From the NCBI GenBank assembly GCA_021787565.1, contig JAJYLT010000026.1, forward strand, positions 1 through 51,265: 51,265 nt of DNA. The letters run 5' to 3'. This stretch comes from Acidobacteriota bacterium (GTDB lineage: Bacteria; Acidobacteriota; UBA4820; DSQY01). The notes beneath the pieces were generated by a model. That model was not told the DNA's origin. It did no database searches and worked only from the letters and a program-made list of their open reading frames with translations. The position numbers and the translations under genes are program-made. Of this stretch, positions 2,900-9,909 are shown one piece after another; within the stretch, counting starts at the first letter, position 1, and each line of letters starts with the position of its first letter.

Positions 2900-3296
2900 C
2901 GCTTCCGCCCCCCCGGACGAGATTCGCCCCTGCCTGAGCCCCCCGGCTCCGTCCGGGGGCGGTTCCCTCGGACGGACCGAACCGGGGCGATGGCTGCCCC
3001 GGCCGTTGCCCCCTCCCCGGCTAGGCCGTCCCTCGAAAGGGGTCAACATGAGTAATATAGCCCATCTCTTTTTGATTACAACGGGCGAGCAGTACCGCCG
3101 CCGCACGGTAGGCCAAATTCCACCACGGAGTCAGGGCGCATGCCACCGCTGGCCGAGCAGGGCGCATGAGGGTTCACTCCACGGGAGAGGTCGCCCTCTC
3201 TCTCGGCGGTCCACCCGGCGGGCTGCAGCGCGTGGCCTGCCCGTTCGTTTCGGCCAGGGGCATCCCGCCGAAGGATCGCGGTTCGCGCCGGCGCGG
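2900..3296. other. Intergenic region without a convincing gene
   Basis: About 400 bp between the kinase-like gene and the tRNA-Cys promoter. Apart from the minus-strand promoter at 3054-3081 I see no coding signature. Open frames crossing it lack family features, and the one starting at 3049 is arginine-rich and runs into the tRNA. Confidence 0.5.
3054..3081 (-). promoter_or_regulatory. Candidate sigma-70 promoter for the kinase-like gene
   Basis: Minus-strand TTGTAA (3081-3076), a 16-bp spacer and TATATT (3059-3054), about 155 bp upstream of ATG 2899. This AT-rich patch stands out in GC-rich flanks. Confidence 0.5.
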
Positions 3297-3326
3297 TTGA
3301 CAGGTGTCCTGAAGGCCCGCGATAAT
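3297..3326 (+). promoter_or_regulatory. Sigma-70 promoter of tRNA-Cys
   Basis: Perfect TTGACA (3297-3302), an 18-bp spacer and GATAAT (3321-3326), ending 8 bp before tRNA-Cys. Confidence 0.85.
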
Positions 3327-3334
3327 GAAAATTC

Positions 3335-3408
3335 GGCGCCGTAGCCAAGCGGTAAGGCAGGGGCCTGCAAAGCCCTCATCACCGGTTCGATTCCGGTCGG
3401 CGCCTCCA
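3335..3408 (+). tRNA. tRNA-Cys (GCA), CCA encoded; integration site of element 1
   Basis: 74-nt cloverleaf. The acceptor stem is GGCGCCG/CGGCGCC, the anticodon stem GGGGC/GCCCT contains one G-T pair, the loop CTGCAAA gives anticodon GCA, the T loop is TTCGATT, the discriminator is T and CCA is encoded. Its 3' 44 bp recur exactly at 9866-9909, marking it as the attachment gene of element 1. Integration keeps the tRNA whole. Confidence 0.96.
3365..3408 (+). repeat. attL of element 1 (44-bp direct repeat)
   Basis: The 3' end of tRNA-Cys from the anticodon loop through CCA is identical to 9866-9909. The match stops exactly after CCA. Confidence 0.92.
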
Positions 3409-3444
3409 CTTCCAACCCCATGAAATAAAAGGGCTCCATCGGTT

Positions 3445-4608
3445 TCATGCCCCTCCCCCCTGGGGGCCGTCGCCCGTGCCCGTGCAGGTTTTGTGCAGGT
3501 CGGGAACCTCGGCGAGGCTATCCACGGCGCTTCTCAGGTTATCGTCCGCGAGGTGGGCATACCGCATGACCATGACCAAGGTGGAGTGTCCAAGAAGCTC
3601 TTTCACGGTGAGGAGGTTCACGCCGCGCTGTACGAGCCGGGAGGCGAAGGTATGCCGGAGAGTGTGCCACGTCACCCTTTGGCGGGGCTCCACTCCCTCG
3701 TTAATCCCGGTCTCTTCCACCGCCCACTTGAAGCGCCGTACCAAGTCGCGCTGATCCCGTCCGGCCATGACCGGGAAGACGGGGGCCGCCGGGCTGATCC
3801 CCCGAGGAAGGCCCTTGAGCACCGCCACGGCGGCCGCGTTCAACGGGACGCGCCGGGTCTTCTTGCCCTTGGTCTTCTCCGCCGTCAGGGTTATCACCTT
3901 CCGGCCAAGGTCCACTTGTCCCCACGTCAGGGAAAGAAGCTCGCCTTGCCGTATGCCCGTGTTGACCGCGAAGACCACGGCGGGGCCAACATCCGGCGGG
4001 CAAAACGCGATGATTCGGGCCTCTTCGTCCGGGCTCAAGAACCGGTCCCGCTTGTTGTCCGGCCGGAAGAGCTTGACCGCCTTCGCAGGATTCTCCCGCG
4101 TGAGCTTCCAGCCGATTGCAAGGCTGAAGAGCCGTCGGAGCCGTCCAAGGTCGTTATCGCACGTCACCTTTCCGGCGGGCCGGGTCTGGAAGGTGAACCT
4201 GCCCTTGGTCCGGGTCTTTGTCCCTCCGAGCCGGGCGTTTCGGTAGGCTTCCACGTCCGCCGCCGTAATGTCCCCGAGGGTCCGCCCCTTGAAGCGGGGG
4301 AAGGCAAGCCAGCGGTCCGCAAATTCGGTATCCCGCCGGTGGGTGCCCTCTGAGACGTTGACCGCGCTCCATTCGAGGAACCGCCTCACCACGTCATCGA
4401 AAAGCACGGTATGGGAGGGGTCTCTTTCGAGGTACCGGCCTTCGGCAATCTGTGCCCTGATCTTGGCGAGGGACGCCGCCGCTATGGCGTAGGTGGGGGC
4501 GCTCATTCGATGGTACCGGCCGCGATAGGTCCATGAGTACCGCCAGCGGCCGTCAGACAGCTTCTTGATTCCCTTTTCGCGTTTCGCTTTCTTGGGTTTC
4601 TCCGTCAA
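3445..4608 (-). CDS. Tyrosine recombinase (phage-type integrase) of element 1
   Basis: 387 aa. It catalyses site-specific recombination between the element and the tRNA-Cys 3' end. The N-terminal AP2-like arm-binding part (GRWRYSWTYRGRYHRM) is followed by a SAM-like core-binding domain and the catalytic domain. The catalytic set is complete: Arg about 220 (TGIRQGELLSL), a beta-strand Lys about 245, His 315/Arg 318 (HTLRHTFASRL), His about 341 (LLGHSTLVMVMRY) and Tyr about 350 (RYAHL). The start is TTG 4608, with a perfect AAGGAGGTG just upstream; the longer frame to 4716 has no such signal. Its last codons contain the directly repeated candidate arm site at 3481-3500. Stop lies 36 bp from attL. 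Confidence 0.93.
   Translation of the reverse strand: MTEKPKKAKREKGIKKLSDGRWRYSWTYRGRYHRMSAPTYAIAAASLAKIRAQIAEGRYLERDPSHTVLFDDVVRRFLEWSAVNVSEGTHRRDTEFADRWLAFPRFKGRTLGDITAADVEAYRNARLGGTKTRTKGRFTFQTRPAGKVTCDNDLGRLRRLFSLAIGWKLTRENPAKAVKLFRPDNKRDRFLSPDEEARIIAFCPPDVGPAVVFAVNTGIRQGELLSLTWGQVDLGRKVITLTAEKTKGKKTRRVPLNAAAVAVLKGLPRGISPAAPVFPVMAGRDQRDLVRRFKWAVEETGINEGVEPRQRVTWHTLRHTFASRLVQRGVNLLTVKELLGHSTLVMVMRYAHLADDNLRSAVDSLAEVPDLHKTCTGTGDGPQGGGA
3481..3500. repeat. Candidate integrase arm-type site, left end (20-bp repeat)
   Basis: cgtgcaggttttgtgcaggt, itself two copies of GTGCAGGT, recurs exactly at 9725-9744 near the right end. It lies within the 3' end of the integrase gene, reading LHKTCTG on the minus strand. 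Confidence 0.65.
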
Positions 4609-4717
4609 CGCACCTCCTTTCACTCCGAACGCGCCCGGCCCGGCCCCCTTGCCGGTAGGCGCGATGATGCTTTCAGGGCCGGCCGCCGGGGCGGCCTGGG
4701 GGAAGGGCCCTCTCACT

Positions 4718-5126: not shown

Positions 5127-5693
5127 CTAGTGCGCCGCTTCCCAGTCTGCCTTGAGCCGGTCAAGGTGCTCTTGGGCAAGCCGGGGTACCTCGCCAGATT
5201 CAGCCAACAAGGCTTCGATGGGGTCTCCCGTTGGGACTCGCCCCGCGAGTTCCCGCCTGGCCGCCGCCTCCGCCTGTTGCGCAAGTACCGCTTCTGCGGT
5301 CGTGGGGCCAGTGGGCGCGTCAACCGCCCCGTATATCTTCAGGGCTTTGAGCACTTGAACCGCCGCCGGTAGGGCCGTTGCGGGGTCCGCCTCCAGGGCT
5401 CCCGCGAGAACGTCCAGGGCCTTCGTTGCCAGGCCCCGAAGCCGATCTTGGGCTTCCTCCCATAGTTCTCGCCGCCGGGCATTCACCGCCGCAATGAAAG
5501 CCGGGTCATGGTTCCTCCATCCGTTGACTGTCTGGCGCGTGACTCCCGCTGCCTTGGCCGCGTCCGTGTCATTCCTCCCGAGGGCCACGAGTTCCACCGC
5601 TGCCGCCTGGGGAGCACTCAGGGCCAGGGCTTCAAAGTGTCGGGTTCCGTCCGTTTTCGCTGGTAGCATTTTCGTTGCCTTTTTGTTGCCCAT
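5127..5693 (-). CDS. HTH protein resembling phage small terminase subunits
   Basis: 188 aa. Near residues 30-65 (LSAPQAAAVELVALG, then RNDTDAAKAAGVTRQTVNGW) there is a helix-turn-helix of the kind in phage terminase small subunits and related phage HTH proteins. An alpha-helical, Ala/Glu-rich C-terminal half follows. The start is ATG 5693 with GAGGAG 8 nt upstream; the longer frame to 5861 crosses the upstream gene's end and was dropped. If it is a small terminase, element 1 could redirect helper-phage packaging as PICI elements do, but no large terminase or capsid gene is present and a plain transcription factor is equally possible. Confidence 0.6.
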   Translation of the reverse strand: MGNKKATKMLPAKTDGTRHFEALALSAPQAAAVELVALGRNDTDAAKAAGVTRQTVNGWRNHDPAFIAAVNARRRELWEEAQDRLRGLATKALDVLAGALEADPATALPAAVQVLKALKIYGAVDAPTGPTTAEAVLAQQAEAAARRELAGRVPTGDPIEALLAESGEVPRLAQEHLDRLKADWEAAH

Positions 5694-5725
5694 CACTTGC
5701 TCCTCTCTGGATACTCGCTTGCTAC

Positions 5726-6034
5726 TTACTTGCTCCTTTCTTGCTTCGCAACGGGAACCGGTGGGTGGCACCTCCGGCAAACCCACGGACCGGGGGCCTC
5801 GGTGCCGTCGGTGTAGTGAACCCTGCCCTGCCAAAAGTCCGAGCCATGACAGGCGAAGCACCGGAGAGGGGCGGGTTCGCCCACGAGCTGAAGCAAGGCG
5901 GCCTTGTTTGCCTTCACTTCGGCCAAGAGGGGCGCGGGCACGGCCTGGGGCGGGGCCAGCCGAAGCCGGTCGCCGTGCCGGGTCAAGGTCACTCCCGCCG
6001 CCGTCAATTCCGTGAGCACTTCCGCCGCGTCCAT
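5726..6034 (-). CDS. TubC_N docking-like domain fused to a zinc ribbon
   Basis: 102 aa. Residues 1-50 (MDAAEVLTELTAAGVTL, GDRLRL, KANKAALLQLV) match the TubC_N docking fold, known from polyketide/peptide synthases and also from small proteins next to primases on mobile elements. Residues 57-95 carry a zinc ribbon with CFAC and CRRC pairs. ATG 6034 has GGAGGTG 9 nt upstream. It follows the primase-helicase gene directly (stop 6039) and is probably co-translated with it, suggesting a replication-accessory or DNA-binding role. The role is inferred from context only. Confidence 0.65.
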   Translation of the reverse strand: MDAAEVLTELTAAGVTLTRHGDRLRLAPPQAVPAPLLAEVKANKAALLQLVGEPAPLRCFACHGSDFWQGRVHYTDGTEAPGPWVCRRCHPPVPVAKQERSK

Positions 6035-6038
6035 TTTC

Positions 6039-8063
6039 TTACACCTCCACGAAGGCTTCGCCGTCATAGGGGACAGGGCCAGGGCCATAGGGGACAGACT
6101 CTTTTCCCTTGTCCCCTATGGTGGAAGCCTTGCCCTGTAAGCCTTTGGAGGCGGTGGTTTCATCATAGGGGACACGGTGAGTGTGTATGTCCCCTATGGG
6201 GGTGGGCGTGTCCCCTATGGTGGGAAGGCTCCAGACTACTCGCCCGCCGGGGCCGAACCCTTCCCGCGTTCGGGTGCCTCCGATGCTGGCAAGGGCTCGC
6301 CGAAGGGTCCGGCGGGTGCCGCGTTGCTCCCGCTCGAAACGCTGTTGAAGGTCGCCCGCCTCCTGGGGGCCTCCAGAGAGTGCCACCTCAAGCCATACCG
6401 CCGCGTCTTCCCGCTCTCCCTTCTCTTCCGGGCCGGCCTCCGGCTCCAAGAGGTCCGCCGCCGAGAGGTCATTCTCGCCAGTCCACGAAAAGCCCTCTTC
6501 GCCTATGCTGTAGCCGATGCTCTTCCCGAGGGGACCAAGGGAGTTCTTCAGGTGAACCATGGCCCGTTGCCCGCCTGGGGCCGCACCGAAGAGCAAGGCG
6601 GACCGGCAAGCCGCCACGAAGTCAATGGAGCCTTGACCGCGATACATGGCGCGGTCGGTCCTGGCCTTGGTTAAGTGCTGTAGGATTAGGACGGTGACTC
6701 CGTGCCGCTCGGCGAGCTTCACCATGGGGGTGAGCTTGCCCCGTACCTCGTTCGCCCGGTTCATGCTGGCGTCCTGTAACCATGCGCTGATAGGGTCCAG
6801 AACGAGCAAGGCGGGTTTTACTTCAAGCACAGCCCTTTCAATGTCCCCAGCATCGGAGAGCGTAAGGGGCCGTTCCGAGCCGTCCTCTTCCCGCCTCCCC
6901 ACGAGCGCCACGAGCCGGGAAGGATCAATCCCCAGTTTGTCCGCACGGGGCCGGAGCGTGTCGCCCCATCCATCTTCGAGGGTTGCGTAAATGGCTCGCT
7001 CTCCCATCGCGATGAGGCGGGCACAGAGGGCGAGGGCCGCCCACGTCTTCCCCGCCGCCGGGTCACCCTGGAAGAGAACGAGCTTTCCAGCCGGGATGTA
7101 GGGCTCCCAAAGCCAAGACACCTCCTCGGGTTCAATCTCGGAGAAGGGCCGGAGCACGGGCCCGGCGGCCTGGGGCTCGGGAAGGGGTGGCAATCCCCCG
7201 AGGGCCGCCCGAAGGCCGGAGCCCACGCGCCGGTGGAGGTCGTCAACGTCCGCCCTGTCCCCGAGGTCTTCGGGCAATTCGAGGGCCATGGCCTCAAGGC
7301 CCGCGTCTCGAAGAGCCTTGACGGTCTTCCTTGCTCCGGCCCGGCCCGCCGCGTCCCGGTCGTATACCACCGCGAACCGCTCGAAGCCGGAGCTTTTGAG
7401 GTCTTCGAGCATGGCCGGAGCGAGAGTCACTGTCTCGCCGCATGGACAGACGGCGGCCACGGCCTCTTGATCCGCCGCCCAAACCGAAGGCTCCCCATTC
7501 ACGACGAAGAGCGCGGGGCCTCCATGCTTCCTTGCCGCTCCCATGCCGTACCAATGAACCTTGCCACCCTTGGCCGCCCATGAGTATTTCGGCTTCGCGC
7601 CGTCCAGGTACTTGATTCGGTCAATCCCGAGGGCCGTGCCATAGCGAAGACAGGGCCGATCCTTGAACGTGGCCGCTGCCACCTCCCATCTTGAGGCAAG
7701 CCGGACCGCGTCAAGGTGCCGGGCTTTGCAGAATTGCTCGAAGGTTTGCGGTGAGGATGATTGCACGGGAGGCGGGGCCTTCGTTGCTCCTGGGGCCGCG
7801 TGGTGCGTGGCCTGGGAGTTCTTGGGCTCGCCCTCGTGGAAGTCCGCCCACGAGAACCCCACGGCCTTGAGCACGTCGCCGGAGTCACACCCGGCATGGC
7901 AATGGATGAGGGGCAAGCCGTCCGGCGTCTCGCCGATGCTGAGGGCCGGAGAGTGCCCGTCATGCGCGGGGCAATGGAGCTTGAAACCGTCGCCGCTCCG
8001 TTCTCGATGGTGGCTCGTTCGTGATTCCACGGCCTGCAACAATCGTTCGAGGGGTGGATTCAT
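6039..8063 (-). CDS. Primase-helicase replication protein (zinc finger, TOPRIM, RecA-like ATPase)
   Basis: 674 aa. An N-terminal CHC2-type zinc finger (Cys31, His34, Cys55, Cys59) precedes a TOPRIM region with Glu191 (FVVNGEPSVW) and DRD at 235-237. A RecA/DnaB-like ATPase follows, with Walker A GDPAAGKT (333-340), Walker B LLVLD (419-423) and the sensor-like LILQHLTKA. This is the domain order of stand-alone replication proteins of satellites and integrative plasmids: primer synthesis and unwinding at the element's own origin. The last about 65 codons are unusual, encoding TIGD, PIGD and VPYD/VPYG peptides produced by the symmetric repeat array at 6065-6219. The start codon overlaps the stop of the 82-aa gene (TCAT on the plus strand). 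Confidence 0.9.
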   Translation of the reverse strand: MNPPLERLLQAVESRTSHHRERSGDGFKLHCPAHDGHSPALSIGETPDGLPLIHCHAGCDSGDVLKAVGFSWADFHEGEPKNSQATHHAAPGATKAPPPVQSSSPQTFEQFCKARHLDAVRLASRWEVAAATFKDRPCLRYGTALGIDRIKYLDGAKPKYSWAAKGGKVHWYGMGAARKHGGPALFVVNGEPSVWAADQEAVAAVCPCGETVTLAPAMLEDLKSSGFERFAVVYDRDAAGRAGARKTVKALRDAGLEAMALELPEDLGDRADVDDLHRRVGSGLRAALGGLPPLPEPQAAGPVLRPFSEIEPEEVSWLWEPYIPAGKLVLFQGDPAAGKTWAALALCARLIAMGERAIYATLEDGWGDTLRPRADKLGIDPSRLVALVGRREEDGSERPLTLSDAGDIERAVLEVKPALLVLDPISAWLQDASMNRANEVRGKLTPMVKLAERHGVTVLILQHLTKARTDRAMYRGQGSIDFVAACRSALLFGAAPGGQRAMVHLKNSLGPLGKSIGYSIGEEGFSWTGENDLSAADLLEPEAGPEEKGEREDAAVWLEVALSGGPQEAGDLQQRFEREQRGTRRTLRRALASIGGTRTREGFGPGGRVVWSLPTIGDTPTPIGDIHTHRVPYDETTASKGLQGKASTIGDKGKESVPYGPGPVPYDGEAFVEV
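6065..6219. repeat. Six perfect 11-bp repeats in exact dyad arrangement; candidate iteron origin
   Basis: CATAGGGGACA occurs at 6065, 6086 and 6164 on the plus strand and as TGTCCCCTATG at 6110, 6188 and 6209. Centre-to-centre spacings are 21, 24, 54, 24 and 21 bp with orientation + + - + - -, so the array is its own two-fold mirror about position 6142. The 21-bp steps are about two helical turns. The array lies inside the primase gene's 3' end yet encodes different peptides on its two orientations, so selection is probably on DNA. It is a likely binding array for the initiator or a regulator. Confidence 0.8.
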
Positions 8064-8312: not shown

Positions 8313-8528
8313 TCACCCGCGCCCTTTCTGGGGCCCGTCGGGGTTGGGGGCTTCGAGCGCCGGCCGCTCGTGGGCGGCGATGAATCGCTCCAGGGTGTCA
8401 GGTCGGAAGAAGACTCGCCTTCCGATCTTGACCGTGGGCCACCGTCCCCGCGAAATGTCCGCGTAGACGGCGCGCTCCGTCTTCCCGATCTTTCTTGCGA
8501 AGTCTGAAACAGTGAGAAGGTCGGTCAT
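8313..8528 (-). CDS. AlpA/excisionase-like MerR-fold HTH protein
   Basis: 71 aa. MTDLLTVSDFARKIGKTERA, then WPTVKIGRRVFF and PDTLERFIA form the winged HTH of the helix_turn_helix_17/AlpA group, which controls integrase expression or acts as a recombination directionality factor. ATG 8528 with AGGAG 7 nt upstream. It is the first gene of the leftward run toward the primase and integrase and the likely lysogeny/excision switch. Confidence 0.8.
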   Translation of the reverse strand: MTDLLTVSDFARKIGKTERAVYADISRGRWPTVKIGRRVFFRPDTLERFIAAHERPALEAPNPDGPQKGRG

Positions 8529-9865: not shown

Positions 9866-9909
9866 CTGCAAAGCCCTCATCACCGGTTCGATTCCGGTCG
9901 GCGCCTCCA
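9866..9909 (+). repeat. attR of element 1 (44-bp direct repeat)
   Basis: Exact copy of tRNA-Cys positions 3365-3408, lacking the 5' half of the tRNA, so not a functional tRNA. Flanking sequence differs on both sides. Confidence 0.93.

Follow-up and report, generated by a model that had tools for sequence, protein, structure and literature searches.

The 51,265-nt contig JAJYLT010000026.1 of an Acidobacteriota bacterium (analyzed at full length and referred to as the window) contains an integrated element with a primase-helicase gene, whose last codons form an array of short, symmetrically arranged DNA repeats. The AAA_25 domain of the primase-helicase has a RecA fold like those of RepA, RadA, and KaiC (profile match with E = 2.9e-21 and 76.4 bits at a cut-off of 27), and RSF1010 RepA (PDB 1g8y) is the closest plasmid replicative helicase by profile (E = 1.8e-9). 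The array lies within the final 180 coding nucleotides of the minus-strand open reading frame (ORF), and its codons directly follow those of a winged-helix domain. From sequence comparison, the repeats are very probably iterons bound by this winged helix and most likely form the replication origin of the element. The gene and its array comprise the following features:

6039–8063, minus strand: primase-helicase, 674 aa, with Toprim, AAA_25, C-terminal winged helix, and array-encoded tail
6065–6075, plus strand: iteron 1, CATAGGGGACA
6086–6096, plus strand: iteron 2, CATAGGGGACA
6110–6120, minus strand: iteron 3, CATAGGGGACA
6121–6163, unstranded: central spacer of the dyad, 56% GC compared to about 65% in the flanking gene; possible opening site
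6164–6174, plus strand: iteron 4, CATAGGGGACA
6188–6198, minus strand: iteron 5, CATAGGGGACA
6209–6219, minus strand: iteron 6, CATAGGGGACA

The array spans 155 bp and consists of six perfect copies of CATAGGGGACA in the order ++-+--, with start-to-start distances of 21-24-54-24-21. Its dyad centre is located at 6142, and starts and ends sum to 12284 for every mirror pair. The original prediction, made from the letters of the window, had described exactly this arrangement of 11-bp copies within the primase gene, and had further claimed that the two orientations encode unrelated peptides; both claims are confirmed, with IGD read one way and VPY the other. A search of the 3.47-Mb genome, which the prediction had proposed, returned six matches to CATAGGGGACA, every one inside the array, and no exact copies elsewhere in the 51-kb window. 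The reversed pattern gave 0 matches in the same genome. The array score of 6.0 far exceeded the maximum among 30 dinucleotide shuffles (3.2) and was also higher than that of a control segment from the gene. Between the 11-mers, the spacers within 6065–6219 are dyad-complementary at 44 of 89 positions, which suggests that the array grew from one of its halves by inverted duplication.

L003, whose protein shares 68% identity across its length, is the closest relative and carries six sites with spacings and orientations identical to those of the window. Its repeat has changed, mostly to C[GC]AAGGGGACA: five of six copies are GAAGGGGACA or CAAGGGGACA, and one is still CATAGGGGACA. Sites of the CCCGAAGAA type occupy the same place in L004, as do the sites of L014, a second AAA_25 element of the same genome (contig C6), whose repeat can be written as the (C)GAAGTGTGCCA or CGAAGTGTGCCA type. 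The L014 repeat differs from the window repeat, which would be expected if two elements in one host need to avoid the origin of the other. No close viral relative of the window's own primase-helicase was found; in L001, a viral contig, a distant AAA_25 gene ends with four exact CATAGGGGACA copies. Among relatives, the layout is kept while the peptide alters along with the DNA. This is the opposite of what had been named as speaking against the original prediction, i.e., relatives that keep the peptide and lose the symmetry.

For a broader survey, we fetched 80 loci from genomes and about 200 from viral contigs and whole genomes, using a closer trio (alignment A3) as search seed, since the alignment it replaced (A2) was too diverse. 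In the first set, 75 of 134 loci had, in the ORF end or just downstream, an array that beat all 30 shuffles, compared to 3 of 134 control segments taken from these ORFs. An expectation–maximization motif search placed 122 of 174 nonredundant loci above the 95% shuffled null. All motifs belong to one family, [A/T/C]AG-N4/5-CA, with AAGATGCTCA as the commonest member. The modal layout is ++--, with direct steps of 18–21 bp and convergent steps of mostly 21–24 bp; a strict helical phase was not apparent, as site spacing had no clear period, though direct steps cluster at 18–21 bp. A symmetric array at this place, which the original prediction had considered unusual, is instead typical of the family. 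Other points went beyond that prediction, which applies to the winged helix directly before the array, the frequency of arrays in the family, and the differences of the repeat between relatives.

The array is found inside the ORF end or just past it; elements, phage contigs, and plasmids all keep it behind the helicase gene, irrespective of which gene comes next. Among 92 loci with a well-registered motif, all sites are inside the ORF at 33 and none at 19. Since the array of these 19 loci lies wholly after the stop codon, the signal must reside in the DNA, and coding is optional. In many loci the tail does translate to repeated short peptides, as would fit protein repeats or a low-complexity tail rather than DNA sites; however, the sites occur in both orientations and in more than one frame, and the code described below is unchanged at the 19 loci without any site in the ORF. 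We regard the protein-repeat explanation, refuted by the arrays past the stop codon, as having next to no probability.

Every position of the motif was compared by mutual information with all columns of the AAA plus winged-helix alignment (about 330 residues). In the following, p0 denotes the base before AG and c1–c5 the next five bases after AG, and residues are given in window numbering.

6228–6431, minus strand: codons of the winged-helix domain (residues 545–612), from the AlphaFold model
6309–6311, minus strand: Arg585 codon; this recognition-helix residue covaries with c5 and c4 of the repeat
6300–6302, minus strand: Arg588 codon; this recognition-helix residue covaries with c3 and c2 of the repeat
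6264–6266, minus strand: Arg600 codon, wing strand; covaries, more weakly, with p0 before AG

The best column was 585 for c5 and c4 (z = 22.6 and 14.0), 588 for c3 and c2 (z = 17.9 and 10.8), and 600 for p0 (z = 8.2). In the AlphaFold model (mean predicted local distance difference test score of 93), the recognition helix is the third helix and has residues 585 and 588 at its start, with residue 600 located in the wing. At c5, C occurs with R/K/H/N/Q585 in 47 of 49 cases and T with A/I/V/M/P/L585 in 32 of 34 (Fisher's test, 8e-23). At c3, G accompanies Arg588 (50/50) and C accompanies Glu588 (4/4). For p0, A is found with Lys600 (51 of 53), and Arg600 goes with T or A, T mainly in RxG[FY]G wings. 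These pairings make sense chemically, which applies to Arg588 with G, Glu588 with C, Ala/Ile/Val585 with T, and Arg/Lys585 with C, where the opposite strand has G. The window obeys the code with its motif ATAG-GGGAC-A (R585 with C, R588 with G, R600 with T), and L003 has Lys at 600 and A at p0. As the anchor of 4-base-spacer loci forces C at c5, the test was also limited to 5-base-spacer loci, which gave 35 C and 2 A versus 32 T, 1 A, and 1 G (p = 7e-20). An unsupervised register recovered the same colinear residue–base map. Furthermore, where the stop codon precedes the whole array, the class rules are followed in 15/15 and 12/12 cases, so that codon overlap is not the cause of the covariation.

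Rules learned on loci L001–L141 were then applied to later loci. Predictions were correct for c5 at 25 of 29 loci (always-C: 13 of 29), for c3 at 24 of 28 (always-G: 18 of 28), and for c4 at 24 of 30 (majority: 17 of 30). Because the loci are related, the association could in principle reflect shared ancestry without contact. On a tree built from the AAA domain only, however, the residue class at 585 and the base each change 20 times, and supported phylogenetically independent pairs were concordant in 9/9 cases for 585/c5 (p = 0.004). For 588/c3, about 6 of 7 such pairs agree, and for 600/p0 about 2 of 5, with none opposite in either comparison. The strongest columns are, moreover, those expected to touch DNA, and we consider shared ancestry a very unlikely explanation.

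The covariation of the repeat with recognition helix and wing identifies the primase-helicase itself as the reader, and sequence data thus strongly support its winged helix in this role. The genes next to the array provide other candidates. They belong to an integrated element of 6.5 kb, framed by exact 44-bp repeats that match the 3′ part of tRNA-Cys and are taken as attachment (att) sites:

3365–3408, plus strand: att copy 1, 44 bp, 3′ end of tRNA-Cys (3335–3408)
3445–4716, minus strand: tyrosine integrase
5127–5861, minus strand: ORF with HTH_23 and weak matches to terminase small subunits (best E = 1.9e-5)
5726–6034, minus strand: TubC_N-like gene (E = 3.8e-5, below the Pfam cut-off) with possible zinc ribbon, beginning just past the array
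8313–8528, minus strand: Cox/excisionase-like HTH_17 protein
9866–9909, plus strand: att copy 2, identical 44 bp, at the opposite element end

By its integrase, excisionase-like gene, and att repeats, this is a mobile element; no capsid genes were seen among its genes, and judged on gene content alone it resembles a phage satellite. The original prediction had left open whether the primase-helicase or an accessory protein binds the array. A TubC_N-like, excisionase-like helix-turn-helix (HTH), or terS-like protein might do so, as these genes adjoin the array and some have HTH folds. Yet two residues of the helicase's own recognition helix covary with the repeat at z-values of up to 22.6 (in a scan of helicase columns), and the viral contig L001 has the same 11-mer, with two downstream ORFs that lack any Pfam match. 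The primase-helicase part of the earlier proposal is therefore favoured, and an accessory protein has only a slim chance of being the reader.

Covariation identifies only who reads the array, and the primase-helicase could bind it for another purpose, i.e., as a partition site, for handcuffing copy control, or as an operator that serves the TubC_N/terS-like genes downstream. Iterons of known plasmids serve copy control too, and the same-strand downstream genes begin about 30 bp beyond the last site. Against this, the place of the array does not depend on the gene that follows, and a reader fused from replicative helicase and primase points to initiation. We consider another purpose unlikely. 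Instead, the array is most likely the replication start site of the element, which we infer from the fusion of a RepA-type helicase to a Toprim primase, from the symmetric layout, and from the precedent of phage-inducible chromosomal islands (PICIs) and Staphylococcus aureus pathogenicity islands (SaPIs).

In the proposed mechanism, the winged helices of two helicase hexamers would occupy the half-arrays ++- and +-- after excision; the symmetric layout suits two hexamers of opposite orientation. The DNA would open in the 54-bp centre or close to it, RecA-fold rings of the RepA type would be loaded facing outward, and the fused Toprim primase would prime both strands. Joint change of repeat and reading residues may let elements sharing a cell, such as the window element and L014, replicate without interference.

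Several results weigh against an origin read in this manner. About 30% of the nonredundant relatives have no array above the null. On later loci, the c2 rule brought no gain (21/29 versus 23/29 for the majority base), and the p0 rule alone performed poorly (19/27 versus 25/27 for always-A), because Arg outside the RxG[FY]G wing goes with A. Plasmid pCG2 carries an array yet also a rolling-circle Rep-like gene. Finally, an AT-rich opening element was looked for in the array centre and not found; known PICI origins differ here, and the non-AT-rich centre is the main departure from the PICI/SaPI precedent. About 330 bp from the array, at 5686–5741, T-rich TTGCTnCTT-like repeats occur (strong AT skew of −0.69, local GC 0.48), a possible opening region.

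Some relatives showed arrays worth mentioning in their own right. In pCG2 (L289; NC_004534.1), native to Corynebacterium glutamicum and otherwise assigned to the rolling-circle plasmids of the pBL1 family, ten CACATACATAC-like sites (2390–2650) lie directly behind a Prim-Pol/AAA_25 gene. Its GC-skew maximum at 2331, beside the array, was not used as evidence because of the second replication gene. L037 has 13 sites in alternating orientation, built of 44-bp tandem units just beyond the stop codon, and gene 67 of Microbacterium phage BabyDotz (L294) contains an intragenic array of GTGTCACACCT-like sites that encodes the primase/helicase tail VTPVTPVT. No array above the null was found in mycobacteriophage Rando14 (L293) and a Streptomyces plasmid (L291). 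Two helicase genes of another family, presumably of the DUF3631 type, also end in arrays, a strong one in L285 (7 sites like TGTTGCGGATA) and a weaker one in L013 (AAAGCGTAACA; 3054–3663), the latter preceding a TubC_N-like gene.

Taken together, we find it reasonably probable that these loci represent a large undescribed class of self-contained replicons in many bacterial phyla, phage contigs, and plasmids. Each would have a RepA-type AAA_25 helicase with its own symmetric origin in or just behind the 3′ codons, read via a short amino-acid code, with a specificity that is predictable from the protein and drifts fast enough for coexistence. The recognition code is possibly general. If true, AAA_25 proteins would gain a role as origin-recognizing replicative helicases of mobile elements, origins could be located in unannotated elements, and more than 90 natural protein–DNA pairs would be available for a winged-helix recognition code. 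How elements switch origin specificity without loss of function would become directly testable; under the code, R600K is expected to move the preference from ATAGGGGACA to AAAGGGGACA.

Origins of related kinds are known, both as iterons at the end of an initiator gene and within genes (PICI/SaPI rep-ori, lambda O). The AAA_25 helicase family, its array layout, and its code appear undescribed, although subscription journals were outside our search and absence is no proof. Classic iteron plasmids have tandem direct repeats and a Rep_3-type initiator, whereas the window has the mixed order ++-+-- and no Rep_3 match in the Pfam scan. In RSF1010, the origin is recognized by a separate protein, RepC; here, unlike in RSF1010 RepA, the winged helix is fused to the helicase. 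In phage lambda, the iterons lie inside gene O, coding for the protein that binds them, and initiator and sites are type-specific. Similarly, the array here lies inside the coding sequence of its predicted binding protein. In contrast, O is not a helicase, and the lambda iterons are mid-gene direct repeats rather than a dyad at the 3′ end; homology of the primase-helicase to O was not found, its Pfam matches being Toprim and AAA_25/ATPase only. Lambda iteron mutations that are silent for the O protein have been used (PMC7466680).

The closest parallels are PICIs and SaPIs. As described in passages of PMC6092414 and PMC7581432, these are integrated elements with integrase and excision gene, pri and rep are sometimes fused, and the replication protein has a C-terminal recognition domain with iterons beside its gene in two sets around a centre. 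The C-terminal domain of SaPI Rep recognizes the iterons adjoining its gene (passages of PMC7581432), and PICI origins, with two iteron sets around a centre, drive plasmid replication (passages of PMC6092414). The window element likewise has int, xis, and rep, no capsid genes, and a specific att site, with a weak terS-like match, and its iterons are at the end of the replication gene in two sets. In the same passages, PICI/SaPI origins are located 3′ of rep, on both sides of an AT-rich region, unlike the array in the last codons with its centre of 56% GC; the helicase here is AAA_25/RepA-like, and the PICI/SaPI passages of both sources describe no residue–base code. Cch2, an element helicase of the staphylococcal cassette chromosome mec, likewise uses its C-terminal domain to bind direct repeats close to its own gene, but is a 3′-to-5′ helicase with an intergenic origin of a single direct-repeat region (passages of PMC7581432). 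AAA_25 proteins were described in 2022 as having no known function, in a paper from which the word iteron is absent, and GP46 of phage F13, related to the AAA_25 RecA-like RepA fold, is a 5′–3′ helicase (PMC8965321). With repeat bases that fit its residues 585, 588, and 600, the window belongs to the group of AAA_25 plus winged-helix replicons.
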